From a virus, in IMG/VR virus record IMGVR_UViG_3300042502_000824, positions 1-23,598 of that record: 23,598 nt of DNA; one strand, written 5' to 3'. Position numbers and translations under genes: made by a program. The notes below the pieces were generated by a model. The model was not told where the DNA came from. It searched no databases and was given only the letters and a program-made list of their open reading frames with translations. Positions 2,192 through 15,937 of this stretch are shown here, piece by piece (positions within the stretch are counted from its first letter, which is position 1; every line of letters begins with the position of its first letter).

Positions 2192-3877
2192 ATGGCGGAT
2201 CAAACCACAGAGCATCCACTTATTCAGCACAAGTATGGAATTCGTTCTCCGGTCAAGATTCCTGACCTTGAGCTAGAGCTTTACGCATTCCGAAACCGAC
2301 TCCAGCCCAATGAGGGCGGACTAGGTACTTTCAACCATTTTGTTAACGCCACCAAAATGCTCTGGCCAAAGATGAGCTGGAATCCGTGGCTTGAAAATCA
2401 AGCAGAAGACCTATGTGAGCATGACTACGTTGGGTGGGCAGGATGTGGCGCGTCCGGCAAGACCTTTGGGGCAACACTTTTCGCTACCGTCTGGTGGTTG
2501 GCCAACCCTGCCAAGTCAACGGTTGTCCTGACATCGACGACCGCGAAGATGATCCGAAAGCGTATGTGGGCCAATCTTCAGGATCTGGTCCGTAAGTCTC
2601 GCGGGTTCCCAGGCAACATGGTCGATTCCAAAATGGCCTTACAAGCTGTCAAAGGTGACGACCGCCATTCCATTTCCGCTATCGCCGTCGCCGAAGGAAA
2701 CACCTCGAAGGCAGTGGCCAACATCCAGGGTATTCACGCCGAGCGGGTGATGGTCATCATCGATGAGGCGACGGACACGCCCGAAGCAGCTTTCGAGGCT
2801 TGTACCAACCTTTCCAAAGGTTGCCGCGAGTTCAAGATGTTGGTTATCGGTAATCCGGCATCGAAGTACGATCCACACGGTCGATTCTGCACACCGGCAA
2901 AGGGTTGGCGCAGCGTAACGATTGAAGATCAGCATTGGCTGACCGAACGTGGCATGTGCCGACGATTCGACGGCATGAAGTCGCCCAACATCAGCGAAGG
3001 GCGAACGAAGTACCCATACCTTATAACGCATGATCAGGTGTTATCCGCTATGCGACATGAGGGTGAGCAAAGCCCTACGTTCTGGAAGTACACGCGCGGA
3101 TTCTGGAGTCCTGACGGCATGGTCAAGACGGTGTTGTCCGAATCACTGATCGAGACGCACACACCTACAAGAAAGTTGACGTTTACCACAAATGTCCAAG
3201 TCGTTGCCGGTCTTGACCCAGGCTTTGGTGGCGACAGATGCGTTCTTCGCTTCGCCAAGGTTGGCACAGCAAACGACAAGGTGAGCATACTTTTTCAGGA
3301 TATCGTCCAGATATCCCCAAACGCTCAGCTAACGGAACCAGTTCACTACCAGATAGCCAACCGCGTCAAAGAGGAGTGCAGCAAGCGCGGCGTGTCGCCC
3401 GATAGGTTCGCTCTCGATTCAAGCGGTGAGGGTGGTGGTCTTGCAGATATTCTGACCCGCGAATGGGGCGTCGTTCATCGCGTTGAGTTTGGCGGCTCTC
3501 CGTCAGCCATTCCGGTCAGCGATGAAGACAGTCGGCCATGCAATGAGGCATACGACCGCAAGGTGACTGAACTATGGTTCTCGATGCGTAAATGGGTTGT
3601 CGAGGAGCGTGTTGGAGGAATGGACATCGAGACTCTTCAGGAGTTCTGCGCGCGCATGTTCGACGATTCCAAGCGGAAGATATCGGTCGAATCCAAGACC
3701 GTGATGAAGCAGCGAACCGGCAAATCGCCTGACTTGGCCGACGCAGCTACAGTCTTGCTTGATCTAGTCCGAAAAACCGCTGTCCTCGAACCGCGAGCAA
3801 CCAGAATGGATAAAGTCTGGGAAAAGCTCGTTCGGGATGCCGATTCAATCTACCACGACGAAACTATCGAAGAATGA
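2192..3877 (+). CDS. terL: Terminase large subunit (packaging ATPase/nuclease)
   Basis: The 561-residue protein drives DNA packaging through the portal and cuts the genome. The ATPase domain shows a Walker A motif (GCGASGKT, residues 84-91) and Walker B (VMVIIDEATD, 186-195, with Asp191-Glu192). A coupling-motif-like VIGNP follows at 218-222. The C-terminal RNase H-like nuclease is marked by GLDPG with Asp342, FALDSSGEG with Asp409, and DLADAA with Asp514 and Asp517. Length is normal for the family. The start at 2192 has an A-rich leader and no Shine-Dalgarno. It overlaps the next gene by 4 bp. The likely small-subunit partner lies about 13 kb away on the other strand, which is not the usual arrangement. 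Confidence 0.93.
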   Translation: MADQTTEHPLIQHKYGIRSPVKIPDLELELYAFRNRLQPNEGGLGTFNHFVNATKMLWPKMSWNPWLENQAEDLCEHDYVGWAGCGASGKTFGATLFATVWWLANPAKSTVVLTSTTAKMIRKRMWANLQDLVRKSRGFPGNMVDSKMALQAVKGDDRHSISAIAVAEGNTSKAVANIQGIHAERVMVIIDEATDTPEAAFEACTNLSKGCREFKMLVIGNPASKYDPHGRFCTPAKGWRSVTIEDQHWLTERGMCRRFDGMKSPNISEGRTKYPYLITHDQVLSAMRHEGEQSPTFWKYTRGFWSPDGMVKTVLSESLIETHTPTRKLTFTTNVQVVAGLDPGFGGDRCVLRFAKVGTANDKVSILFQDIVQISPNAQLTEPVHYQIANRVKEECSKRGVSPDRFALDSSGEGGGLADILTREWGVVHRVEFGGSPSAIPVSDEDSRPCNEAYDRKVTELWFSMRKWVVEERVGGMDIETLQEFCARMFDDSKRKISVESKTVMKQRTGKSPDLADAATVLLDLVRKTAVLEPRATRMDKVWEKLVRDADSIYHDETIEE

Positions 3878-4503
3878 GCAAGGTTACTGGATACAAGGTT
3901 CTCAACGAACACATGGTCATCCCCGGCGGATGGCATTACCGAGTGCCAGAGACGGGCATCGAAATCATGGGAGGATCATGGCCGCAGCTCCATGAGTTCG
4001 TTCGCAACCATTACACAGCGAACGCCATCGCCGTACCGATCAACCTTGACACTTTAATCACCGAATATGCGTGTCGCAACGGTGCGGATTGCGCCTACAA
4101 CGAGGTTGAACTTCCAAAACCAGAAGGCCGCAAATCGCTGCAAATTGGAGATGTCATCCGATTCAGCATGAGTTTGCTTCATGGACTGACCGTCGGCGGC
4201 GGAAAAGTCGATCAAGCGGAGGCAAATCGACGCGCAAGCATCTGTTCAGGATGCCGTTTTAATCGTAAGCCGCTCGGATGCACTGGATGTAATGCTCGCG
4301 TTCTAAAAGACGCCGTAAAAACCTTCTCACAACACGGAAATACGCCGTATGATGAGCAGGTTCAGAGCTGTGAATTTTGTGGTTGCTTTATCAGAAGCAT
4401 GGTGTGGTTTCCCATTGAAACACTCCATAAATTTACGGACGCTACAGAGAACGAAAACCTTCCGGCTCACTGCTGGAAAAAACGACCATGTACGGAAACC
4501 TAG
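3874..4503 (+). CDS. Cys-rich putative zinc-binding protein between terminase and portal
   Basis: A 209-residue protein of unknown function. The visible pattern is a set of Cys pairs: ICSGC (Cys124, Cys127), GCTGC (Cys136, Cys139) and CEFCGC (Cys166, Cys169, Cys171), plus Cys200 and Cys206. These could form one or two zinc ribbons or a small metal site. The N-terminal half has no recognised motif, although WHYRVPETGIEI and the following Trp/Pro-rich stretch look compact and globular. It overlaps the terminase stop by 4 bp (ATGA) and the portal start by 16 bp, so its expression is coupled to both packaging genes. A role in packaging or head maturation is inferred from position alone. Confidence 0.8.
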   Translation: MSKVTGYKVLNEHMVIPGGWHYRVPETGIEIMGGSWPQLHEFVRNHYTANAIAVPINLDTLITEYACRNGADCAYNEVELPKPEGRKSLQIGDVIRFSMSLLHGLTVGGGKVDQAEANRRASICSGCRFNRKPLGCTGCNARVLKDAVKTFSQHGNTPYDEQVQSCEFCGCFIRSMVWFPIETLHKFTDATENENLPAHCWKKRPCTET

Positions 4504-6737
4504 CCCAACTGCCGCTTGAAACCATCAACGAAAACGGCAAAGCGCCTGAAACGCGCATAGCCGATGCGGCATCAGCTCGCGAAATTTTCCAGAAGCTGAT
4601 CATGGCCGATCAGTTGCGGAACGTGACGCGCGCCAAGTTGCGCGGTCTTGTTGATGGTAACCCTCCGTACAATCCTGCCGAACTGCGCCGTAACAACCAA
4701 GCGTTCCGAACCAATGTGAACTTCCGCGAGTCGGAAGCGTTCCTCACGTTGGCCATGTCTGCCTTCTACGATGTGTTCGCCGAGGTTCCGACCTACGCCA
4801 ACATTCGCACCGCTTACGGCAACGACATGGATAAGCGGGAGGAATGGTCGAAGATCATTACCGAGGAATTCGACCGTCTCCAGAAGATGGACAAAGACTT
4901 CGACTACCTCATGCAGCTCTCGCAGCGTGAGATGGTCCTTATTGGCGATGGCCCGTTGATTTTCGAGGACAGCACCGATTGGCGGTGTAAGGCCATCATG
5001 GCAACGGATCTTCTCGTTCCAGATGGAACCAAGTCGAACGTCAGCGACTGGAAAGTAGCCGCTGTCCGAACCCGCATGGGTGTCGATGATCTTTTTGAGA
5101 AGATTCAAGATGAAGAGGCAGCTCGCGCCGCCGGTTGGAACGTGGATTACGTTCGCCAGCGTATTCGCGCCGCAATGCCCGAGCCGTATCGTTCTGGTGT
5201 TCAGTACGACTGGGAGTTCTTCCAGCGCCAGCTTCGCTCGAACGACATCACATTCTCGGCTCGCTCCGAGGTGGTCTTGATGTGCCACATCTTCTACAAG
5301 GAGTTCGATGGTCAGATCAGCCATGTCATCATCGATGAGCGTGACAGCGAGGACTTCATGTACAAGAAGCTGCGTCGCTTCGGCCGGTGGGAGCAGGTTA
5401 TCCATCCGATGTACTACGACCGTGGCGATGGCGAGCATCATGGTGTAAAAGGCTTGGGCATCAAGATGCTCCAGGCGATGGAACTGAAGAATCGTCTGCG
5501 TTGCTCGATGGTTGATAGCGCATTCGCTCGCACCCAGATTCTCTTCCGACCTCTCAACCCGAACGCTCTAAACAAAACGAGCGTCGTTCAGCAAGGACCG
5601 TATGCTATTCTCCCGCCCGACTACGAAGTCATTCAGCAGAACATTGCTGGCGTTCTGGACGCTCCTATGGCGGTCAACGCTGACCTTGAGAATGTTCTTC
5701 AAGGCAACCTCTCTCAGTATCGCCAATCGCTCAACAAGCCGTCGGGCAATCCTCGTACTGCCACCGAAGTCCAAGCCATCGTGGCACAGCAGTCAGCAAT
5801 CGGTAAGACGCAGTTGAGCCGGTATTACAACCAGTTAGATTCTTTCTTTGAGGAACGGTACAATCGCGCCTCAAACCCCAACCTTAACCCAATTACCAAG
5901 TCGGACAAAGACGCCATCGAGTTCCAGCGTCGGTGCAAGGAGCGTGGTGTTCCTGTTCAAGCGATGATAGACATCGATTACGTCGAGGCGACTCGCACGG
6001 TCGGCCAAGGTTCTCAGTTCGCTAAGCAACAGCTTCTTGGAACTTTGCTCGGGCTTTCCGGTTCTCTTCCCGAAGGCGGAAAGATCAACCTGCTCAAGGA
6101 CTACATCGCCGCTCAGGTTGGCCAACAAATGGTTGATCGTTATTTGCCGACTCAGATGCAGTCTGCTCGCGTTCAGGATCAGGCTGCTCTTGCTGTTCTG
6201 GAGCATTCATCGTTGCGCCAGGGCAACATGCCAATCGTCACCGACACGCAGAGCCATATCATTCACATCGACACACATCTGGCGGCTGCAAACGAGGCTG
6301 CTGCATCGCTTCAACAGGGTGGAAATCCGCAGGAGATTGTCCTCTTCCTCCAAGGCATAGGTCAACACGTTCAGGATCATCTCCAGCGCCTGTCCACCGA
6401 TCCTACGCGCAGGCCGCAGGTTGAGGCTTATACGCAGCAGTTGCAGATGCTTAGCCAGACGATTGAACAGCTTGGTCAGTTGATTCAGGAACAGCAGCAA
6501 GCTCAGATGCAGATGCAGCAAGCTCAAGCGATTCAGCAGGGTGTTGATCCGAAAACGGCGATGATGAATGCGGAGGTTCAGTCAAAAATCGCTCGCCAGA
6601 ACGCCGAGACTATGGCCAACATTCAGCGTCAGAACACGAAGGCGATGGCAGATCTGTCACGCCGGAATGCGAAGACCACCGCTGATATTCAGCGAGCGAA
6701 TGCAACTGCCGAGTCCAACTTGGCGCGTCAGGGATAA
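4488..6737 (+). CDS. Portal (head-tail connector) protein
   Basis: A 749-residue protein in the portal position, right after the terminase genes. Length fits large podovirus-type portals. The N-terminal two thirds are mixed alpha/beta with a portal-like pattern: a conserved-looking TNVNFRESEAF segment at about residue 75, a long central region with HGVKGLGIKMLQAMEL (about 318-333) and RTATEVQAI (about 424-432), the last resembling the helix that precedes the long portal stem/clip helices. The last 130 residues are Gln/Ala/Met-rich coiled coil ending in repeated ARQNA/RRNAK-type units, like barrel regions of P22-type portals. The protein forms the dodecameric DNA channel at one capsid vertex (family knowledge). 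The start overlaps the previous gene by 16 bp. Confidence 0.85.
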   Translation: MYGNLAQLPLETINENGKAPETRIADAASAREIFQKLIMADQLRNVTRAKLRGLVDGNPPYNPAELRRNNQAFRTNVNFRESEAFLTLAMSAFYDVFAEVPTYANIRTAYGNDMDKREEWSKIITEEFDRLQKMDKDFDYLMQLSQREMVLIGDGPLIFEDSTDWRCKAIMATDLLVPDGTKSNVSDWKVAAVRTRMGVDDLFEKIQDEEAARAAGWNVDYVRQRIRAAMPEPYRSGVQYDWEFFQRQLRSNDITFSARSEVVLMCHIFYKEFDGQISHVIIDERDSEDFMYKKLRRFGRWEQVIHPMYYDRGDGEHHGVKGLGIKMLQAMELKNRLRCSMVDSAFARTQILFRPLNPNALNKTSVVQQGPYAILPPDYEVIQQNIAGVLDAPMAVNADLENVLQGNLSQYRQSLNKPSGNPRTATEVQAIVAQQSAIGKTQLSRYYNQLDSFFEERYNRASNPNLNPITKSDKDAIEFQRRCKERGVPVQAMIDIDYVEATRTVGQGSQFAKQQLLGTLLGLSGSLPEGGKINLLKDYIAAQVGQQMVDRYLPTQMQSARVQDQAALAVLEHSSLRQGNMPIVTDTQSHIIHIDTHLAAANEAAASLQQGGNPQEIVLFLQGIGQHVQDHLQRLSTDPTRRPQVEAYTQQLQMLSQTIEQLGQLIQEQQQAQMQMQQAQAIQQGVDPKTAMMNAEVQSKIARQNAETMANIQRQNTKAMADLSRRNAKTTADIQRANATAESNLARQG

Positions 6738-6742
6738 AATTT

Positions 6743-7363
6743 ATGAGCCAAAACGAAGAACTCGTTTCTCAATTCATCGCAGAGCAGTTTCCCAAAATGG
6801 GCGGCTGGTGCGACGTTAAGAAAGGTTTGGAAATCGCCAAACTTGTCCTTGAAACCAAACCGCAGCGCATCGCTGAAGTTGGCGTTTTCGAGGGCAAGTC
6901 AACGCTCGCCCTGGCCTACGCCTGTAAGCTGAACGGAAGTGGCACGGTTTACGCCATTGACTCTTGGAAGAAAGAGGACTGCATCGACGATGAAAATGCA
7001 GTCAATCAAGAATGGTGGGCGGCGCTTGATTTGGACGGCCATTACGAGGCTTTCGTTCGCCACTGTGTCCGTGCAGAAGTTGTTCGCCATATCCAATTCT
7101 GCCGCATGTCGTCGTGGGACGCGTCGCGATTCCTGCCCGAGGTAGACATGGTTCACATCGATGCCAATCACGCTGAATGGCCGTCTACGAGCGATGTCGT
7201 CAACTGGCTTCCGAAGCTCAAGGTTGGCGGTTACATCGTGATGGACGATGTGAACTGGGAGTCCACACAGACTGCGCTGAAGTTTGTTCTGAAACGCTGT
7301 GAATTTGTTGCGCGTTTCGATCTGAACGAAAGCTGCTTTGCCATCTATCGTAAGTTAAAATAA
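6743..7363 (+). CDS. Class I SAM-dependent methyltransferase (Methyltransf_24 type)
   Basis: A 206-residue cytoplasmic enzyme predicted to transfer a methyl group from S-adenosylmethionine. Motif I is AEVGVFEGKS (residues 44-53), followed by an acidic ribose-binding position in VYAIDSW (Asp73). VDMVHIDANH (134-143) and the LKVGGYIVMDDV block (159-170) are the signature of the Methyltransf_24 group, which often acts on sugars or small molecules near surface-glycan genes. No signal peptide or membrane segment. It begins 5 bases after the portal stop and is followed after 2 bases by a glycosyltransferase gene, so a glycan-related substrate is likely but not shown. The leader is A/T-rich with no Shine-Dalgarno. 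Confidence 0.85.
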   Translation: MSQNEELVSQFIAEQFPKMGGWCDVKKGLEIAKLVLETKPQRIAEVGVFEGKSTLALAYACKLNGSGTVYAIDSWKKEDCIDDENAVNQEWWAALDLDGHYEAFVRHCVRAEVVRHIQFCRMSSWDASRFLPEVDMVHIDANHAEWPSTSDVVNWLPKLKVGGYIVMDDVNWESTQTALKFVLKRCEFVARFDLNESCFAIYRKLK

Positions 7364-7365
7364 CC

Positions 7366-7968
7366 GTGAAAACGGTCGTCATTACGATGCGCGGTTCGCC
7401 ACGCATCCCGCGCTTAAAAGAGAACCTGAATGCTTTCAGCATTTTGGACTACCGGATTTTCTATGGACTAAATGGAAAGAAGTCTGGTCTGAAAGCAAGC
7501 ATTCCGTACGAGGTTGATAATCCCGGCTCCGGTTATTTAATCTGCCATAAGCATGTCGGATGCACCATGTCTCATTGGATGCTGTGGAATGCTCTCGATT
7601 TTGATCCATCAACACCTGACATGGTGATGATTCTTGAGGACGACGTTATTTTTCGTCCGCACTGGAAAGAAACGGTTGAACGCGCACTGACAAAACTACC
7701 AGAAGATTGGGACATTCTCTATCCTGGATCTTGCTGCGCGCACGGAAAGATGTCCCGAGAGCTGGATTCCAACCTTTTTGAGGGAATGCCGCTTTGCACC
7801 CACTGTTACATAGTACGCAAGAAGGCTCTCAAGACGTTGATTGAGACGAACGAGGAGATTTTTGCGCCTATCGATTTGCAAATGTACCTCAACAGTCGCC
7901 ATCTCCTGAAATGCTTTACCATTTTTCCAAGGGTCGTTGACCAAGATGGAACCGATCTTTCAGACTGA
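7366..7968 (+). CDS. Glycosyltransferase family 25-type (LPS-type) transferase
   Basis: A 200-residue protein with the GT25 pattern: an N-terminal strand with an aromatic/Gly turn (IFYGLNG, 31-37), the GCTMSHWMLW helix (65-74), and a DxD-like metal/nucleotide-sugar site MILEDDVIF (88-96, Glu91-Asp92-Asp93). FAPIDLQMY (166-174) matches the later conserved 'D-x-x-L/M' region of the family. GT25 enzymes transfer hexoses to lipooligosaccharide or to collagen-type hydroxylysine. Here the acceptor is unknown. The start is GTG at 7366, two bases after the methyltransferase stop, implying translational coupling. No membrane anchor is visible, so it should act in the cytoplasm. The family call is firm, the substrate open. 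Confidence 0.85.
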   Translation: MKTVVITMRGSPRIPRLKENLNAFSILDYRIFYGLNGKKSGLKASIPYEVDNPGSGYLICHKHVGCTMSHWMLWNALDFDPSTPDMVMILEDDVIFRPHWKETVERALTKLPEDWDILYPGSCCAHGKMSRELDSNLFEGMPLCTHCYIVRKKALKTLIETNEEIFAPIDLQMYLNSRHLLKCFTIFPRVVDQDGTDLSD

Positions 7969-7970
7969 AA

Positions 7971-9314
7971 ATGAAAGACATAATCCGCAGCATTTCACTT
8001 AAGGCTCTCAAACGATTTTCTAACGGAGGAGATGGCCACGCGGATCTTCTCATGCAGATCGAGGATCTTCGCAAGACAATCGAAATACGGACCAAAGAAA
8101 ACGAGGAGCATCTGACAGAAGTTCGCGAGGAGCGTGACTATTGGTTGGCTCAATACGATGAGGTCAAATTTGCCGCTGAATTTCTTATGAGTTACGCAAA
8201 AAACGATGTTCCAATTCTGGCGGACCAAGTGGATTGGGAGGTAGGAAAGATTGGACTTCCGAAAGAAGCCGGAACGTACTACTTCAACCCTGCCATCACG
8301 CAGGAGCCTGACGGAAAGATTCTGCTTTTTGCACGGCGATGCCGCAACAAGCGCGAAAGGGATGAGGATGTCTACATCGAGAAGAATGACATCGCTGTTT
8401 TCGAGCTGAACAACGATTTGCGCGCCACAAAAAAGGCTCTCATTCAGCTCAATTCCAACTATCCGAACGAGCAATTCGAAGATCCTCGCGTCGTAAAGTT
8501 TGGCGACAAGTATGGGCTAAGTTGCTGCTCATACGTTCCACTAAAATCATACGCGCATCAGGCGATGTTCCTGCTTGATGCCCAGTTTTCAAACGTGGCC
8601 AGATTCGATCCGATCTACGGAAACAATTTGGCTCAGGCGATGGTGAACGATGGCCATGAGAAGAACTGGCTCTACTTTGTCCACGACAACGCGCCACATC
8701 TGGTGTATTCGGCCAATCCTCATGTCGTAGTGCGCCTTAATGGGCGTCTTGAGAGTGAAACGAAATACATCACAGACGAGTTCAATCCGCTCTGGAAGTT
8801 TGGTGAAGTTCGAGGAGGCTCAAATCCAATCCTTGTCGATGGCTTGTACTGGACCTTCTTCCACAGTTCTCTGCCGTGGATAAACAAGAAGCGTCGTTAC
8901 TACATGGGCGCGTACGCATTCGAGGCAAAAGCTCCATTCCGAATCGTCCGCATGACGACTTTGCCGATCCTGACTGGAACAAATCAGCAAGACTGGTGGC
9001 CAGGACTTCCGGCTGTTGTGTTTCCATGTGGAGCATTCTTTGACATCGCAAAGAATCAATTCGTCGTATCGTACGGCATCAACGATGTTGATTGCGGCTA
9101 CATCAAGCTGCCGCTGGGCGACATGCTTGAAATCACCAAGGTCATCCGACCGAATCGCGATGTCGTCAACAAAGAGAATCCAATCCGATTGGATGAGGTT
9201 CTCGACCCAATTCCCCCAAAGCACAAACTGAAACGAAACACAAAGACAAGATATGATGAACTGGCTAAGAGGCTTGAAGAACGAGAACCCGAAGAACCTG
9301 CTGGAGTTGCCTGA
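7971..9314 (+). CDS. GH130-like beta-propeller protein with N-terminal coiled coil
   Basis: A 447-residue protein. Residues 20-70 are a charged heptad-like coiled coil. Residues 100-390 resemble the five-bladed propeller of GH130 glycoside phosphorylases/hydrolases: FNPAI (105-109), the hallmark FEDPRV (169-174), GGSNPILVDGLYW (282-294), YYMGAYAFE (310-318) with a downstream Arg, and VVFPCGAFFD (349-358) before a final SYG strand. GH130 enzymes act on beta-mannosides and similar links, by phosphorolysis or hydrolysis. The catalytic Asp could not be assigned with confidence, so activity is uncertain. The C-terminal 30 residues are Lys/Arg/Glu-rich. The coiled coil could oligomerise or attach the domain to another protein. 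It starts 2 bases after the glycosyltransferase stop. Confidence 0.72.
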   Translation: MKDIIRSISLKALKRFSNGGDGHADLLMQIEDLRKTIEIRTKENEEHLTEVREERDYWLAQYDEVKFAAEFLMSYAKNDVPILADQVDWEVGKIGLPKEAGTYYFNPAITQEPDGKILLFARRCRNKRERDEDVYIEKNDIAVFELNNDLRATKKALIQLNSNYPNEQFEDPRVVKFGDKYGLSCCSYVPLKSYAHQAMFLLDAQFSNVARFDPIYGNNLAQAMVNDGHEKNWLYFVHDNAPHLVYSANPHVVVRLNGRLESETKYITDEFNPLWKFGEVRGGSNPILVDGLYWTFFHSSLPWINKKRRYYMGAYAFEAKAPFRIVRMTTLPILTGTNQQDWWPGLPAVVFPCGAFFDIAKNQFVVSYGINDVDCGYIKLPLGDMLEITKVIRPNRDVVNKENPIRLDEVLDPIPPKHKLKRNTKTRYDELAKRLEEREPEEPAGVA

Positions 9315-9576
9315 CGTAAATGTATCTGACTGGCAGACTGATGGCCAACAGGCTGAACTCGCTCAAATTCTGCAAAATCCGATTCTTCGGATGGCTTTAC
9401 GCATCGTGGCTGAATCAATGCCAGTTCCGATGCCGTCTCATGGCAGCAAGGAATCGGACATTATTTTCGCTGCCGGTGTAACCGCTGGCTACGCGCATTG
9501 TCTTGAAAACCTTCGTAAATTGGCGGTAATTGAAACAGCGAAAGAACCAGAAGCGACATTCGATAAGCAATACTAA
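9253..9576 (+). CDS. Small phage protein before the scaffold
   Basis: A 107-residue protein without a recognised enzyme motif. The recurring elements are a hydrophobic helix LQNPILRMALRIV (about 40-52) and GVTAGYAHCLENLRKLA (about 76-92), a pattern I have seen in small proteins encoded next to phage scaffolds. The ATG at 9253 overlaps the previous gene by 62 bases in another frame. Internal Met codons near residue 47 (MALRIV) could be the true start, but starting there would split the paired helices. It ends 6 bases before the scaffold start. Function unknown; head assembly is inferred from position. Confidence 0.7.
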   Translation: MMNWLRGLKNENPKNLLELPDVNVSDWQTDGQQAELAQILQNPILRMALRIVAESMPVPMPSHGSKESDIIFAAGVTAGYAHCLENLRKLAVIETAKEPEATFDKQY

Positions 9577-9582
9577 CAAATT

Positions 9583-10767
9583 ATGGAAGAACCACTGAAC
9601 TCACCTCTCGCCAACAACGGAACAACCCCTGACTTCGGCAGCTCGTTCATCGACGCTTTCAAGGCAAGTGGCATTGATGACGCCGCATTGGCTGATGAGT
9701 CGGCCAATTCTGCCTCGCAGATTACGGAAGAGCCGAAAGCTAAAACTCAGAAGCCAGCCGCAAAGTCCGCAGACGCTTCCAAGCTCAGCAAGGCTGAGAT
9801 GGATATCGAGCGGATGTTCGGTACGAAAAAGCAGCAGGCCGAGGCTCCGACTTCTACGGACGCTGATTCCGATATTCCCGAGACGATCAAGTCTACGAAG
9901 GCCGCTGATGCTTTCCGCAAGATCAAGGAAGAGAAGGCTTTGCTGGCCAAGCAGTTGGATGAGCTGAAGTCTGGAAAGACTGCCAATCCGAACTACGAAG
10001 CGCAGCTCAAGACATTGCAGGAAGAGCGTGACGCGCTTTCCGAGCGTGTTCGCATCCTCGATGTCGAGCGCCACCCTGAGTTCGTCAAGAAGTACGAAGG
10101 CAAGATTAGCGGCGTCTTTGATTCCGTGAAGAACCTTGTTGGAACTGACGGGGAGCGACTTGTTGATTTGCTCAAGTCTCCTGAGAGCGAATATCGCAAC
10201 TCGCAGATCGACGACATTGTCGAAGGGCTTTCTCCGTCCAAGAAGGCAAAGCTCGGTGCGCTGATCGTGAAGTACGACGAAATCAATGGCGAACGCGCGT
10301 CAGAGATTTCCGAGGCGAAAGCTGATTACGACGCCATCATCTCGAAGTACCAGCAGGACAACGAGGAGGGTACTAAGGCTGCGCTAGAGTCGGCCACCAA
10401 GACCTGGGCTAAGGTGAGCGAGAATGCTCGCGCGCTTGAAATCTTTGAACCGCGCGAAGGTGATGATGAATGGAACACCGAGTTGAATGGCCGACTGAGT
10501 CTCGCCCAGCAGATCTTCAACGGCGAGAACAGTGAGGAGGATCTTGCCAAGGCGGCTCTGTGGGCCGCTGCTGCGCCGAAGTACCGCGAACTGCTCTATG
10601 CTCAGGTTGAGGTGAACAAACGCCTGCAAGCTGAACTCTCAAAGTATCGAGGAAGCGAGCCTGGAGTTACCTCGAAAGCGACATCTGGCAGTTCTCGTCC
10701 CTCGAACACGAACACCGCGAAGAGCGAAGACTTTGTTGCCAGCGTGATGAAGTCGCTCGGACGCTAA
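9583..10767 (+). CDS. Capsid scaffolding protein
   Basis: A 394-residue, strongly acidic, mostly helical protein. The N-terminal 120 residues are low-complexity Ala/Glu/Lys/Asp-rich, residues 120-155 form a coiled coil (KEEKALLAKQLDELKSG, then LQEERDALSERVRILD), and the C-terminus after about 345 is Ser/Thr/Gly-rich with a final FVASVMKSLGR, like the basic C-terminal tail that binds coat protein in P22-type scaffolds. Such proteins direct procapsid assembly and are then removed. Its place downstream of the portal fits, but the major capsid gene is not next to it; it is on the opposite strand about 4-5 kb away. It is the last gene before a strong terminator. Confidence 0.82.
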   Translation: MEEPLNSPLANNGTTPDFGSSFIDAFKASGIDDAALADESANSASQITEEPKAKTQKPAAKSADASKLSKAEMDIERMFGTKKQQAEAPTSTDADSDIPETIKSTKAADAFRKIKEEKALLAKQLDELKSGKTANPNYEAQLKTLQEERDALSERVRILDVERHPEFVKKYEGKISGVFDSVKNLVGTDGERLVDLLKSPESEYRNSQIDDIVEGLSPSKKAKLGALIVKYDEINGERASEISEAKADYDAIISKYQQDNEEGTKAALESATKTWAKVSENARALEIFEPREGDDEWNTELNGRLSLAQQIFNGENSEEDLAKAALWAAAAPKYRELLYAQVEVNKRLQAELSKYRGSEPGVTSKATSGSSRPSNTNTAKSEDFVASVMKSLGR

Positions 10768-10772
10768 AACAA

Positions 10773-10812
10773 TTATCCCCCGATGGTTCTCATTACCACC
10801 GGGGGATTTTCG
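10773..10812 (+). terminator. Intrinsic terminator between convergent blocks
   Basis: An inverted repeat pairs ATCCCCCG (10775-10782) with CGGGGGAT (10800-10807), continued inside by TGGT (10784-10787) with ACCA (10795-10798) after one A/C mismatch. It is followed by TTTTCGTTT, a good U-tract for the rightward transcript from the scaffold. In the leftward direction the trailing sequence is AATTGTTTT, so it may also stop transcripts from the lysis block. It is placed 5 bases after the scaffold stop and 11 bases beyond the end of the leftward gene. Confidence 0.9.
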
Positions 10813-10818
10813 TTTAAA

Positions 10819-10962
10819 TCACTTACGATAAGGACCGCTTCCGCTCGGAACCGGCTTTGCAACCGGCTTAATCGGAGGCTTCGGCGGAGGAGACTGCTTG
10901 TAAGGTCCGCTGCCGCCTACCTTAACAGACGGCGAACCTTTGTACGGTGCGTTATTGCTCAT
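10819..10962 (-). CDS. 47-residue proline-rich peptide
   Basis: A short frame that starts at ATG 10962, overlapping the stop of the upstream lipoprotein gene by the usual 4 bp (ATGA). It encodes 47 residues with three APYKGS/SGPYK/SGPYR elements flanking a proline-lysine core (PPPKPPIKPV). No membrane segment or signal peptide. The ATGA coupling, a clean stop just before the terminator and the internal repeats support it being translated. Function unknown; being the last gene of the lysis block, it may be a small partner of the spanin-like proteins, but this is speculation. Confidence 0.55.
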   Translation of the reverse strand: MSNNAPYKGSPSVKVGGSGPYKQSPPPKPPIKPVAKPVPSGSGPYRK

Positions 10963-11189
10963 TCTTTTGGGAGTGCATACCAGCCTTCATGGATGGTAAT
11001 ACGGTTCTGACTACGCACCGATTTGCCGCTCGCGTCAACGACCCAAACCTTAGCCTTAACGTCCTCAGCAAGCCTCACCGGCTCACCGTGGGGGACGTAA
11101 ATCACTCGGCTCGCGCAGCTCACGCTCATGCTCGCGCACACGATCAAGAAGACCGCGCTTAAGATCAGGTTGTTTCTTGGCGTCTTCAT
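10959..11189 (-). CDS. Small lipoprotein, candidate o-spanin (Rz1-like)
   Basis: A 76-residue protein. The N-terminus has Lys/Arg, a hydrophobic stretch (LILSAVFLIVCASMS) and a lipobox-like SVSC with Cys25, expected to be the lipidated residue after signal peptidase II cleavage. The mature part contains YVPHGEPVRLAEDVKAKVWV and ends in EGWYALP, a pattern found in small phage lipoproteins of lysis regions. Its 5' part overlaps the upstream gene by 107 bases in another frame, as in Rz/Rz1 pairs. The role proposed is the outer-membrane partner in envelope fusion at lysis. Lipoprotein is well supported, spanin only by context. It suggests a diderm host. Confidence 0.7.
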   Translation of the reverse strand: MKTPRNNLILSAVFLIVCASMSVSCASRVIYVPHGEPVRLAEDVKAKVWVVDASGKSVRSQNRITIHEGWYALPKE

Positions 11190-12245: not shown

Positions 12246-13457
12246 TTAGGCGAGAGTGATGTCGGCGACTCGGGTCGTGCCATCAGAACCGCGATAGCTA
12301 AAGCGGAGGTTGGTGTTGCTGGTGGCGGTCATTGTAAGCTCACCGTTGGTTGTGAGTGTTGCCGGAGTAGTGGTCGATGCCAACAGAATCAAACGCCCGC
12401 TCGCATCGAGCGTCATTCTGCTCGTTCCAGCTCCAGAGGCAAGCGGATCGCCACCAAGCGCGTTCGATTGCTGGAACACCAAATCGCCGAAAGCGTTCCA
12501 GTTTGAAATAACAGCCCAATTTCGAGCTGCAGCGTTTACGGAGCTTGTCCCGAGAACAACAGCAGAATTGTTTGATCCCGTAATCTGCAACTTTTTATTT
12601 CCTGCAACAGCAGCAGCGGGAGCACCGCCTATGCCCACGTTGCCGGAGGTGTCGATGATAGCTCTGGCCGTAGAATCCCCATTTGTGTGGAAAACAATTC
12701 CGTTTCCGCTAGTCGACCAGATTGCAATGTTCTGGGATGTACTTCCAACCAGTGAACCGATGGTTCCAAAAAAACCAGCATTAACACCACCAGTAGCAAT
12801 CGCTAGATTTCCGCCCCAAGCATTTGCGTTGGTATTGTCGATTGTTACAGCAGTGGCAGCACCAGAAGATGTAAAAATAGCAGTTGCTCCAGCAGTTGTT
12901 GAAACTGTCAACTTATGTGTCGGACTAGCAACCCCCACGCCCAGCCCCGTGGAGTTCAAAGTCATGGCTAGAGTAGAAGCAGCCGAGAACGACAGGTTGT
13001 TGGCAGATCCGAGATACACACCATTCGCAGGAATGGTTGCGCCAGTCACATTCAGTCGAGCAGCGTCAAGTGCGCCGCTGATGGTGGCGGAGCCAGTGGT
13101 AGTTACTCGGCCAGCAATTCCGTCAATGTTTAGAACATTAACACCATCCACAGCTATGCCGATGTTTTTTGACGATGGCAGATAAATTCCATTGCTAGGA
13201 ATTGCCGAAGCCGTGGGGTTAAACGAACCAGCAGTCAGAGCATCAGTTGCGCTACTGTAAAGCAAACCTCCGTCGCCAGCCAGATTGGTTCCGTTGTTGA
13301 AGATGACCTGATTAATTGCGCCAGGAAGTCCAACACCTCCACCAAGAGCATTATACAGCTCGGTGAAGTTCTGGTTGGTGTAATCGAACGAAGTGCGAAG
13401 CGGAGTTCCCGTTCCGTCGTTCGGTGCTGCGCCGATATTGATAGTTTGCTTTGCCAT
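12246..13457 (-). CDS. Tail fibre / tailspike-type protein
   Basis: A 403-residue protein. The N-terminus MAKQTINIGAAPNDGTGTP, followed by FTELYNAL, is a recurring virion-attachment module of phage fibres and tail needles. The rest is Gly/Ser/Thr/Ala/Asn-rich with repeated short strands (NPTASAIPSNGIYL, then TGATIPANGVYLGS near 135-150 as a degenerate repeat; GNVGIGGAPAAAV; ASGRLILLAS), typical of beta-helical shafts. The C-terminus ends in a short beta segment (NLRFSYRGSDGTTRVADITLA, of which the last residues complete the protein) similar to many phage fibre ends. No enzyme motif or intramolecular chaperone seen. It probably contributes to host recognition. Confidence 0.82.
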   Translation of the reverse strand: MAKQTINIGAAPNDGTGTPLRTSFDYTNQNFTELYNALGGGVGLPGAINQVIFNNGTNLAGDGGLLYSSATDALTAGSFNPTASAIPSNGIYLPSSKNIGIAVDGVNVLNIDGIAGRVTTTGSATISGALDAARLNVTGATIPANGVYLGSANNLSFSAASTLAMTLNSTGLGVGVASPTHKLTVSTTAGATAIFTSSGAATAVTIDNTNANAWGGNLAIATGGVNAGFFGTIGSLVGSTSQNIAIWSTSGNGIVFHTNGDSTARAIIDTSGNVGIGGAPAAAVAGNKKLQITGSNNSAVVLGTSSVNAAARNWAVISNWNAFGDLVFQQSNALGGDPLASGAGTSRMTLDASGRLILLASTTTPATLTTNGELTMTATSNTNLRFSYRGSDGTTRVADITLA

Positions 13458-13711: not shown

Positions 13712-14152
13712 TTAGTCTGCTACAATGAACCACGCCGTTCCATTGCTGATGATCGAAACTTTGGACCAGTGCGTCGTCAAAGAATAAGTTGCCGTTCCGT
13801 CAATCGTTTCGGAACCAAACGGATCAACAGTGACATGGTTCGCGCCAGCATTCACGCGCTTCACGAAGAATATCCGCCCATTGGCCGTTGCCGCCGGGGG
13901 AAGCGAAACCGTAATCGCTGCCGCTGTTGAATTGGCGATAATCGCGAAATCACTCGAAACGATTGAAGTGGATGCCGTAACCGAGCGAACCGTTCCAAAC
14001 GAAGCAGCATTTGCCGCAGCCGTTCCAGCGCCATCAGCAATACGATTGAGAAGTGCCAACTTGGCCATATCACGCTCCCACGGCGAGCGGCACCCAAGAG
14101 GGCTAACCTCGCTTAGCAGCGTTGCCGTTTCAGCGCATGTAATGTCAGCCAT
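13712..14152 (-). CDS. Small tail appendage protein with C-terminal beta domain
   Basis: A 146-residue protein. Residues 1-42 form the shared helical module (ITCAETATLLSEVS, then GCRSPWERDMAKLALLNRIAD). Residues 55-146 resemble the beta-rich unit common at the ends of phage fibres: a strand SSDFAIIANSTAAAITVSLP, then FFVKRVNAGANHVTVDP, GSETIDGTATYSLT and a terminal ISNGTAWFIVAD. That unit usually builds a trimeric tip or shaft. It is two genes downstream of the capsid gene. The structural call is good; exact position in the virion is unknown. Confidence 0.75.
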   Translation of the reverse strand: MADITCAETATLLSEVSPLGCRSPWERDMAKLALLNRIADGAGTAAANAASFGTVRSVTASTSIVSSDFAIIANSTAAAITVSLPPAATANGRIFFVKRVNAGANHVTVDPFGSETIDGTATYSLTTHWSKVSIISNGTAWFIVAD

Positions 14153-14689: not shown

Positions 14690-15937
14690 TTAGCTGCAAA
14701 TGATCTGGGTCAAAGCGCCGGTGCAACGACGGAAGATAATCGTCATGCCCTGATTCGTGAAAATCGGCTCGGGCGCGTGAATGAACTCAGCGTAGTGCTG
14801 ACCCTTCTTCTCCAGCGGATCGGCGCAATCCACATCGAGCTTGTACGCACCAGTCACCCACTGCCACTCGCCCATGTAGTTGGTCGGCATCCAGCTCAAA
14901 TCACCAACACGGTTCACAGGACGCACAATGTGCGACTTGAACACATACGGGGTGACAACGAACGCAGCCTCGAACGGAGCAGTCACCCAGCTTGAGTTGA
15001 CGCTGAACACAGTACCCTTCGTGCCATTGGCGCTGGTAAACGGCTGAACCAACGTGTACTTGCCACCAGCGTAGGTGTAGCGGGGCGGGAACAGATTCGG
15101 CACATGCCGGAAGTTCTTAATCACCCGATTCGCACCAATGCGCTTGAGCAACTCAGCGCCGCTGCCGCTGCCCATATCAGCCTGACGCAGATCCTCGCGG
15201 AACGCGGGGTTGTTCTGAGCGATGCGCTGCGAAGCCTCCAAGCCGATATAGAGCGGGAACACCGGACCGTCGCTGCTGTAGCTGATGAAGCCAGAGCTAT
15301 CAGGATTGGTAGCACCGTTACGGATCAGGGTGGCAGCAGCCACATCAAGCATCTCCTGAGTCAGCTCGGAGGTGGACTGATTGAGCGCCTGACCAGCGGA
15401 ACCGGTCTGAATCCAGGGCAGCTCATTCACGCCAGACGGAATCGTCTCAACCTGAGTGAAGGACGAGTCGGCCACAGCCTTGATGGCATACTTGGCGAAC
15501 ATGTTCTGGTAACGGGTTTCCCAAGAACGCTGAGCGCGGATGGAGAGCTTCTCCAAGTACACTCGCAAGAACGCCTCGACGCGATGGTCGAAGGTCAGAT
15601 CGTCCTTACACAAGAGCGGACCTTTGAGGGCGAAACGCTCAGGACTCCAGGTAACGGCATTATAGCCGACCGGAACGTCATTGTAGGTGACATCGCAAGC
15701 GCCACCGTTATCGCCGGGATTGCCGCTGGCGAGCGTGATGGCCGACCACTCCTCAGCCGCAGTCGGCTCGATGGAGGTGGTGGTGAACGAGGTCTGGGTC
15801 AGACCAGTACCCTGAGGATACTCGCCGCGCTCAATCATGTTGAGCCACATCGAGCGGTACGAGGCGCGTTTATAAACGTCCTGAGCGAGCGACTCGGTAG
15901 CCACCGCAAAGGCGTTGAAGACATTAGGACAGGCCAT
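14690..15937 (-). CDS. Major capsid protein
   Basis: A 415-residue protein beginning MACPNVFNAFAVATESLAQ. It has no enzyme motifs, a length typical of HK97-fold capsid proteins, and a Trp/Tyr/Phe-rich mixed alpha/beta sequence, with an N-terminal helix of YKRASYRSMWLNMIERGEY type that I associate with capsid proteins of podovirus-like phages, and a C-terminal TIIFRRCTGALTQIICS. A long leader and two terminators fit a highly expressed isolated transcript. The scaffold and portal identify this phage as needing a capsid gene and no better candidate exists in the window. Unusually, scaffold and capsid genes are on opposite strands. Fold assignment was not tested. Confidence 0.72.
   Translation of the reverse strand: MACPNVFNAFAVATESLAQDVYKRASYRSMWLNMIERGEYPQGTGLTQTSFTTTSIEPTAAEEWSAITLASGNPGDNGGACDVTYNDVPVGYNAVTWSPERFALKGPLLCKDDLTFDHRVEAFLRVYLEKLSIRAQRSWETRYQNMFAKYAIKAVADSSFTQVETIPSGVNELPWIQTGSAGQALNQSTSELTQEMLDVAAATLIRNGATNPDSSGFISYSSDGPVFPLYIGLEASQRIAQNNPAFREDLRQADMGSGSGAELLKRIGANRVIKNFRHVPNLFPPRYTYAGGKYTLVQPFTSANGTKGTVFSVNSSWVTAPFEAAFVVTPYVFKSHIVRPVNRVGDLSWMPTNYMGEWQWVTGAYKLDVDCADPLEKKGQHYAEFIHAPEPIFTNQGMTIIFRRCTGALTQIICS

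Follow-up and report, generated by a model that had tools for sequence, protein, structure and literature searches.

The viral record IMGVR_UViG_3300042502_000824, whose full 23,598 bases are referred to here as the window, encodes a methyltransferase (MT24a, 6743-7363), a GT25 glycosyltransferase (GT25a, 7366-7968) and a protein with the propeller fold of GH130 enzymes (7971-9314), which follow one another on the plus strand directly downstream of a putative portal gene (4488-6737, 749 amino acids, plus strand). Everything from the stop codon of the putative portal gene to the start codon of the GH130-like propeller gene is exchangeable, and 72 distinct cassettes in nine arrangements were found in this interval among contigs of related uncultured phages. 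The putative portal gene is the constant left flank of the cassette and the propeller gene its constant right flank. The interpretation favoured here, with a probability of about one half, is that the region is a phage 'glycotype' locus which directs the synthesis of interchangeable methylated glycans in the cytoplasm, most likely on a virion protein. This suggests that related viruses differ in their sugar coat or sugar mark.

A preliminary description of the window had noted three sugar-related genes at these positions, the middle one with a GTG start, and the open reading frames and the sequence agree with it, with gaps of 5 bases between the putative portal and methyltransferase genes, 2 bases between the methyltransferase and GT25 genes and 2 bases between the GT25 and GH130-like genes. 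The three family assignments (methyltransferase, GT25 and GH130-like) were likewise borne out by Pfam matches above the gathering cut-offs. The methyltransferase is class I S-adenosylmethionine (SAM) O-methyltransferase-like, with matches to Pfam Methyltransf_24 (E 1.7e-20) and to the O-methyltransferase structure 3cbg in the PDB (E 8.1e-05). The GT25 protein matches Pfam Glyco_transf_25 (E 8e-13, 49.1 bits against a cut-off of 24) and the PDB entry 9crz, 'putative glycosyltransferase R655' (E 2.6e-05), which we take to be a mimivirus protein, and its EDD motif is present in 31 of 31 GT25a copies. None of the three proteins contains a 19-residue segment above 1.6 on the Kyte-Doolittle scale, a hydropathy scan made without a signal-peptide program, which agrees with an absence of strong membrane segments.

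Content and exchange of the cassette

Relatives were collected by scanning viral contigs with the propeller (best 80 of 139 relatives), with a divergent propeller (best 80 of 134, largely the same contigs), with the candidate major capsid protein (MCP; best 80 of 344) and with a divergent scaffold protein (best 80 of 97), and further loci were added by means of a conserved DNA pattern. Loci that lacked the end of the portal gene or the start of the propeller gene did not enter the cassette counts. An early set comprised 168 loci with 70 distinct cassettes and the final set 226 redundant loci, many of which are the same contig retrieved more than once, with 72 distinct cassettes. In the first 80 loci the putative portal, the propeller, a 107-amino-acid protein and the putative scaffold are kept wherever the contig reaches, and the interval between portal and propeller ranges from 1.2 to 2.9 kb.

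The cassettes are built from 11 enzyme families, defined by clustering and homology typing, which together fill 96.4-100% of each of the 72 intervals. Six are glycosyltransferase families, namely GT25a-d, GT32 (Gly_transf_sug) and a GT2/7C protein, and five (MT24a, MT24b, MT11a, MT11b and MT3) are methyltransferases or methyltransferase-like; GT25b (55.5 bits) and GT25d (80.8 bits) both exceed the Pfam cut-off of 24, judged by one representative each. The most frequent arrangement is MT24a-GT25a-MT3-GT25c (26/72), followed by GT32-MT11a-MT24a-GT25b (18/72), GT32-MT11b-GT25d-MT24b (9/72), GT2/7C-MT3-GT25c (7/72), MT24a-GT25a as in the window (4/72), GT32-GT25d-MT24b (4/72), GT2/7C-MT24a-MT3-GT25c (2/72) and two arrangements seen once each. 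A search of 384 loci at E 1e-4 found no member of the 11 families outside the portal-propeller slot. The preliminary description had asked whether the same three genes occur together in other phages. At the level of families they do, with a GT25-type, a methyltransferase-type and a GH130-like gene in 72 of 72 distinct cassettes (MT3 is the sole methyltransferase in seven and GT25c the sole GT25 in nine), but orthologs of the window's own methyltransferase and GT25 occur jointly in only 30 of the 72 and make up the complete cassette in four. The notion of a fixed three-gene set had to be abandoned, since only the GH130-like gene is constant. The propeller is also present in every scaffold-found locus that leaves it 1.6 kb or more (65 of 65, out of 80 loci) and in every MCP-found locus that leaves it 1.5 kb or more (14 of 14, out of 80), and its constancy is therefore not an artefact of its use as a query.

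Different cassettes occur in pairs of loci whose flanking DNA is 96-98.6% identical, in a comparison of those 66 of the 70 distinct cassettes that have 600 bases or more of flank. The flanks of loci L105 and L178 are 97.2% and 98.6% identical, those of L033 and L201 97.4% and 97.6%, and for L220 and L228 an identity of 96.2% extends 4 bases beyond the portal stop codon and one of 97.4% begins 1 base before the propeller start. The left breakpoint in the window lies within 6738-6742 and the right one within 7969-7970, as identity to locus L003 ends at 6739 and begins again at 7969, on both sides 2 bases from the gene edge. L204 and L122 break 2 bases from the edge on the left and 3 on the right, and L212 and L216 2 on the left and 7 on the right. 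Where both members of a pair have the same outer cassette gene (L105/L178, L201/L033 and L023/L229), the break lies deeper inside on that side. Exchange appears to have been recent and clean. A tree of the putative portal gene, built from those 62 of the 70 cassettes with 2,100 bases or more of portal sequence and comprising eight arrangements, requires 25 or more changes of arrangement, against a minimum of seven if each arrangement had a single origin, and 21 changes are still needed when branches under 95/80 support are collapsed. Strongly supported sister groups with different cassettes include L023/L229, L206/L108 and L220 with L228/L103.

Motifs, hydropathy and rates of substitution were assessed on the 70-cassette set, which holds 260 gene copies. 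The motif searched for (EDD, DxD or DD in the glycosyltransferases and the SAM motif in the methyltransferases) is present in all 260, and 259 are uninterrupted, the exception being GT25c of locus L221. Hydropathic segments above 1.6 occur in three copies, all of them MT24b with a maximum of 1.68, and the other 257 have none. The median ratio of nonsynonymous to synonymous substitutions (dN/dS) is 0.046-0.123 by family, compared to 0.059 for the putative portal gene and 0.083 for the GH130-like gene (from randomly drawn pairs with dS between 0.1 and 2, at most 400 for each family and only three for GT2/7C). All cassette families are under purifying selection and, as far as their sequences tell, the cassette enzymes are kept functional. 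The G+C content of the families is 41-51%, compared to 55.4% for the putative portal gene and 51.7% for the propeller gene. Several families look imported because their G+C content is below that of the putative portal gene; this is less clear for the two families of the window, which at 51.0% and 50.7% are close to the propeller.

The constant GH130-fold propeller

The propeller protein matches Pfam Glyco_hydro_130 (PF04041) with an E-value of 2e-11 (43.9 bits against a cut-off of 26) over its residues 93-390, which correspond to profile positions 26-319 of 320. Its matches to the NCBIfam mannobiose phosphorylases are far under the cut-offs (43.4 bits against 550 and 39 against 450) and its best PDB sequence match to a solved GH130 structure has an E-value of 1.9e-6. 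AlphaFold2 models are of low confidence (mean predicted local distance difference test score, pLDDT, of 43.9 with 18 sequences and 47.2 with 42 sequences), and the underlying alignments are narrow, with members at least 78% identical to the window's protein. Foldseek ranks 1-24 for the model are all GH130 or Leishmania GT108-type entries with a best E-value of 1.9e-05, the matches including structures of MPT-2, a Leishmania GT108 protein (E 3.9e-05, 16% identity). In VIA-align rows 1-21 are GH130 enzymes or putative glycosidases, the latter presumably also GH130 members, with Z-scores of 10.5-12.7; sialidases follow from Z 9.4, and GT108 is only level with them at a Z of about 9. Since the model is of low confidence, the assignment of the fold rests on the profile matches together with the consistent fold search.

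The preliminary description had proposed a GH130-like propeller and, as a check, the placement of its catalytic aspartate, and Foldseek, VIA-align and the alignment of the EDPR motif with DPR concur with this proposal, with the low confidence of the model as noted. This motif (E170-D171-P172-R173, encoded at 8478-8489 on the plus strand) is invariant in two sets of 81 and 42 sequences, the first of which includes some that come from the same virus. It lines up with the DPR motif of bacterial GH130 proteins and TM1225. The Asp of the DPR motif is presumably the catalytic residue of GH130 enzymes, which makes Asp171 the candidate catalytic acid. The aligned basic residues that we take to bind phosphate in GH130 phosphorylases appear to be replaced in the phage protein, with one position in the third blade occupied by Asn219 or Ala221 (the alignments differ by two residues) and the His-Arg pair of the phosphorylases by His238-Asp239. 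If these residues have the roles assumed for them, phosphorolysis is unlikely, which would leave hydrolysis or transfer. The preliminary description had also taken the propeller to be fused to a coiled coil. Helices are indeed predicted at the N-terminus (residues 2-17 and 22-77) and this part is conserved among the relatives, but the coiled coil is only a weak prediction because pLDDT is 65-69 up to residue 40 and below 40 after residue 50.

A review states that GT108 and GH130 share this fold, and that phosphate-binding residues distinguish phosphorylases from hydrolases (PMC8950772). The phage propeller has the fold and the DPR motif with its candidate catalytic Asp in common with GH130 mannoside phosphorylases and hydrolases and with GT108 dual-activity mannosyltransferases. 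Unlike these, it carries an additional N-terminal helical extension, does not conserve the canonical basic residues in the alignments made, is viral and is constantly found beside presumed head genes. It appears to be an undescribed viral branch of a family known for phosphorylases, hydrolases and mannosyltransferases. A profile of the phage family matched many bacterial GH130 proteins in a preselected small set (best E 2.4e-11). The same profile matched one of 398 genomes from the phylum of a metagenome-assembled genome (MAG) designated G013, and that match is a phage contig inside the MAG; ordinary PF04041 genes are present in 29 of 299 such genomes, G013 being counted by way of this same contig. 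Viral contigs scanned with a bacterial-type GH130 gave no match. The sole match of the propeller to a 'phage' record, MT839999, was rejected as it looks like a mis-assigned bacterial scaffold. This record (MT839999.1, 'Bacteriophage sp.', locus L240) encodes a canonical GH130 as well as sigma-factor-like and sugar-isomerase-like genes, named by reading their translations.

Possible roles of the locus

In the proposed mechanism the constant GH130/GT108-fold propeller would work together with the exchangeable soluble glycosyltransferases and the sugar-type O-methyltransferases, all of which would be made in the cytoplasm and probably late, their genes lying inside the presumed head operon. A short methylated glycan would most likely be built on a protein of the virion while the particle is assembled or beforehand, by one GT25 and one methyltransferase in the window's version and by other combinations in its relatives, and the propeller may handle a step common to all types, be it the first sugar, a cap or trimming. 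Recombination at the portal stop and the propeller start would swap the whole set and confer a new sugar type on a particle of the same architecture. The benefit could be escape from defences that recognise glycans or surfaces, or a change of receptor. A glycan on the virion is preferred because soluble glycosyltransferases and methyltransferases in a virion operon always accompany one constant sugar enzyme; it is from the genes that we infer the location of this glycan, its product, its chemistry and its benefit. More tentatively, the locus may be to phages what a serotype locus is to bacteria. Near-identical phages would then exchange whole glycan-writing programmes at a fixed position of the virion operon, each phage having a distinct 'glycotype', and the constant GH130/GT108-fold protein would serve all types as a priming or capping enzyme or would form the scaffold of a glycosylation complex.

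Bacterial flagellin glycosylation islands and O-antigen loci also hold exchangeable sets of glycosyltransferases and methyltransferases beside constant genes. They are larger and often include genes for sugar-nucleotide synthesis or membrane export, which the phage cassettes do not. Glycosylation of phage virions as such is already known, as stated in the accessible portions of two papers (PMC12363180; PMC12619734). According to these portions, the mycobacteriophages Che8, Corndog and Myrna use glycosyltransferases of their own to glycosylate a capsid or tail-tube protein and are alike in that the enzymes are phage-encoded, but neither an exchangeable multi-gene cassette with fixed flanks nor a GH130-fold partner is described there (PMC12363180; PMC12619734), and in the viruses studied here the acceptor is a presumed virion protein. 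The hypervariable region of Ostreococcus viruses resembles the slot in that core genes flank it and capsid genes lie close by, in its association with host-interaction genes and in the glycosyltransferases found elsewhere in the genomes; it differs in that these are large algal viruses with a mixed gene content and, in the part of the source available, with no clean exchange of glycosyltransferases and methyltransferases at gene edges (PMC12906663). Neither an exchangeable glycosyltransferase/methyltransferase slot nor a phage GH130 beside head genes was found among the open-licence literature matches listed (titles and starts of abstracts). It is the fixed slot with exchangeable glycosyltransferase/methyltransferase programmes beside a constant GH130-fold protein that appears to be new, and not virion glycosylation itself. 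Glycosylated virions have been described in several cultured phages. The natural swaps on near-identical backbones provide ready comparisons in which the presumed particle is the same and the sugar programme differs, and make it testable how virion glycans relate to host range, escape from recognition and particle stability.

Several points weigh against a virion glycotype locus. The acceptor protein is only inferred, and the identities of portal, scaffold and MCP are unproven by sequence. The model of the propeller is of low confidence and its active site appears to depart from that of GH130 phosphorylases. Among the cassette families the assignment of MT3 is weak (Methyltransf_25, E 0.027) and GT25c scores 23.3 bits, just under the Pfam cut-off of 24, for the one representative scored; some of the counted motifs (DD, DxD and EDD) are short. 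Nor are the arrangements free of ancestry, as shuffled labels need 29-39 changes on the portal tree (mean 34.8, 500 shuffles) compared to 25; ancestry still counts because 25 is fewer than in every one of the 500 shuffles. Lastly, GT25 is named in Pfam for the biosynthesis of lipopolysaccharide (LPS), which also fits modification of the host surface. This is the main rival, doubtful yet deserving of attention, in which the enzymes act late at the inner face of the membrane on lipooligosaccharide (LOS), LPS or a lipid-linked glycan, so as to block re-adsorption of progeny or superinfection by competitors, and the exchange tracks the glycan types of hosts. The likeness of exchangeable glycosyltransferase sets to polysaccharide loci points the same way, as does a match of the GT2/7C protein to the exopolysaccharide glycosyltransferase EpsD, at 39 of 370 bits far under its cut-off. 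The cassettes themselves, as distinct from the rest of the genomes, were scanned and hold only soluble glycosyltransferase- and methyltransferase-type families, without a flippase- or polymerase-like membrane gene or the membrane glycosyltransferases of gtr-type seroconversion, and in the loci searched these genes lie within the terminase-to-scaffold block and nowhere else, both of which argue against action on the host surface.

It is improbable that the junction of portal and propeller is an accessory hotspot which collects counter-defence genes, with the glycosyltransferases and methyltransferases modifying the target of a host defence. Breakpoints at gene edges would fit, as would the G+C content of several families (down to 41%) compared to that of the putative portal gene, but the window's families are near the GH130-like gene in this respect, and a hotspot would be expected to hold mixed functions whereas 72 of 72 cassettes hold only glycosyltransferase- and methyltransferase-type genes. 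PADLOC, run on 10 representatives, picked out only two methyltransferases with weak matches to mad2 (9.4e-05 and 1.6e-05). Glycosylation of DNA, in which the glycosyltransferases would decorate hypermodified phage bases and the methyltransferases would methylate sugars or bases, is less likely than host-surface modification and altogether has little in its favour. DNA-modifying phage glycosyltransferases are known (PMC12619734), and the window's methyltransferase matches phrog_2675, 'DNA methyltransferase', in PHROG (E 2.8e-15), although Pfam groups it with O-methyltransferases and the genes are in the terminase block and not beside replication genes. In 12 records of 41.7-92.5 kb, which are possibly incomplete, a ThyA-type synthase or hydroxymethylase (PF00303), as needed for hydroxymethyl pyrimidines, was found in none (the control was positive in nine of 14 genomes), a TET/JBP dioxygenase in none (here the control was silent too) and a C5 DNA methylase in only two (G001 and G011). 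The preliminary description had offered recycling of host sugar as an option, with the propeller as a mannoside phosphorylase that supplies sugar-1-phosphate to metabolism. Membership of the GH130 family and the weak NCBIfam mannobiose phosphorylase matches speak for it, but it is poorly supported and very improbable given the apparently replaced basic residues and the constant linkage of the propeller to writer enzymes.

The surrounding gene block and its relatives

The block starts with the constant gene for the terminase large subunit (TerL, 2192-3877, plus strand), identified by PHROG phrog_2 (E 6.9e-23). It is followed by an open reading frame for a cysteine-rich protein of 209 amino acids (3874-4503, plus strand), which lies between TerL and the putative portal gene and is present in 55 of 80 loci, the remaining loci being mostly truncated. 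The protein has several CxxC pairs, is kept in relatives and is without a convincing family. The preliminary description had placed the three sugar-related genes between portal and scaffold. They do lie within the block that starts with the terminase, but the two labels are given by gene order, and a conserved 107-amino-acid gene with no assigned function (9253-9576, plus strand; 80 of 80 loci) overlaps the propeller gene and intervenes before the constant putative scaffold gene (9583-10767, plus strand, 394 amino acids), itself recognised by position and composition. No convincing match was found for the putative portal in Pfam, PHROG or PDB or for the putative scaffold in Pfam or PHROG, and eight relatives of the putative portal have no Pfam match. 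The labels derive from the position after TerL and from the same gene order in MW202879, where the terminase, 26% identical to the window's TerL, is followed by two hypothetical genes, a 740-amino-acid head-to-tail connector, a small gene, the scaffold and the major capsid gene; the window's portal and scaffold candidates do not align with their counterparts there. A 13-pair hairpin at 10775-10807, after the putative scaffold gene and followed by a T-rich stretch on the plus strand, is the longest stem in the scan and a possible end of the operon, although terminator-like sites number six against 5.9 expected by chance. A single promoter-like site (9228-9257) was found in 6400-11000, fewer than the 2.8 expected on average by chance.

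Among 50,697 annotated phage records the putative portal and the methyltransferase have no relative at E 1e-5, the GT25 protein has only Burkholderia phage AP3 (27% identity; two records of one phage) and TerL has relatives of 23-33% identity in 19 records. As there are no portal or methyltransferase relatives and only a 27% match for GT25, the viruses appear, by this search, to form a clade without a close cultured member. The only hint of a host is weak and comes from locus L082, a propeller-bearing phage contig of 4.8 kb that is binned in a Nitrosomonadales MAG. Record G001 (loci L232 and L233) encodes a ThyX-type thymidylate synthase, an exonuclease VIII-like gene, a helicase and a primase, and among ten of its proteins compared with PHROGs one of 1058 amino acids weakly matches 'integrase' (phrog_95, 3.6e-4), perhaps by chance. 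At 92,531 bases, record IMGVR_UViG_3300021962_000056 (loci L237, L238 and L346) is twice as long as its relatives and matches the propeller once. Its middle part has a higher G+C content of 57.5% and is only partly similar to the relatives, and the record may be a larger variant or a chimera formed from two phages. The putative MCP of the window (415 amino acids, 14690-15937) is encoded on the minus strand, opposite to the terminase block, and is strongly conserved, with no convincing match in Pfam, PHROG or PDB. Also on the minus strand, fibre-like genes at 12246-13457 and 13712-14152 range in identity to relatives from about 30% to 99% and are a second variable region.

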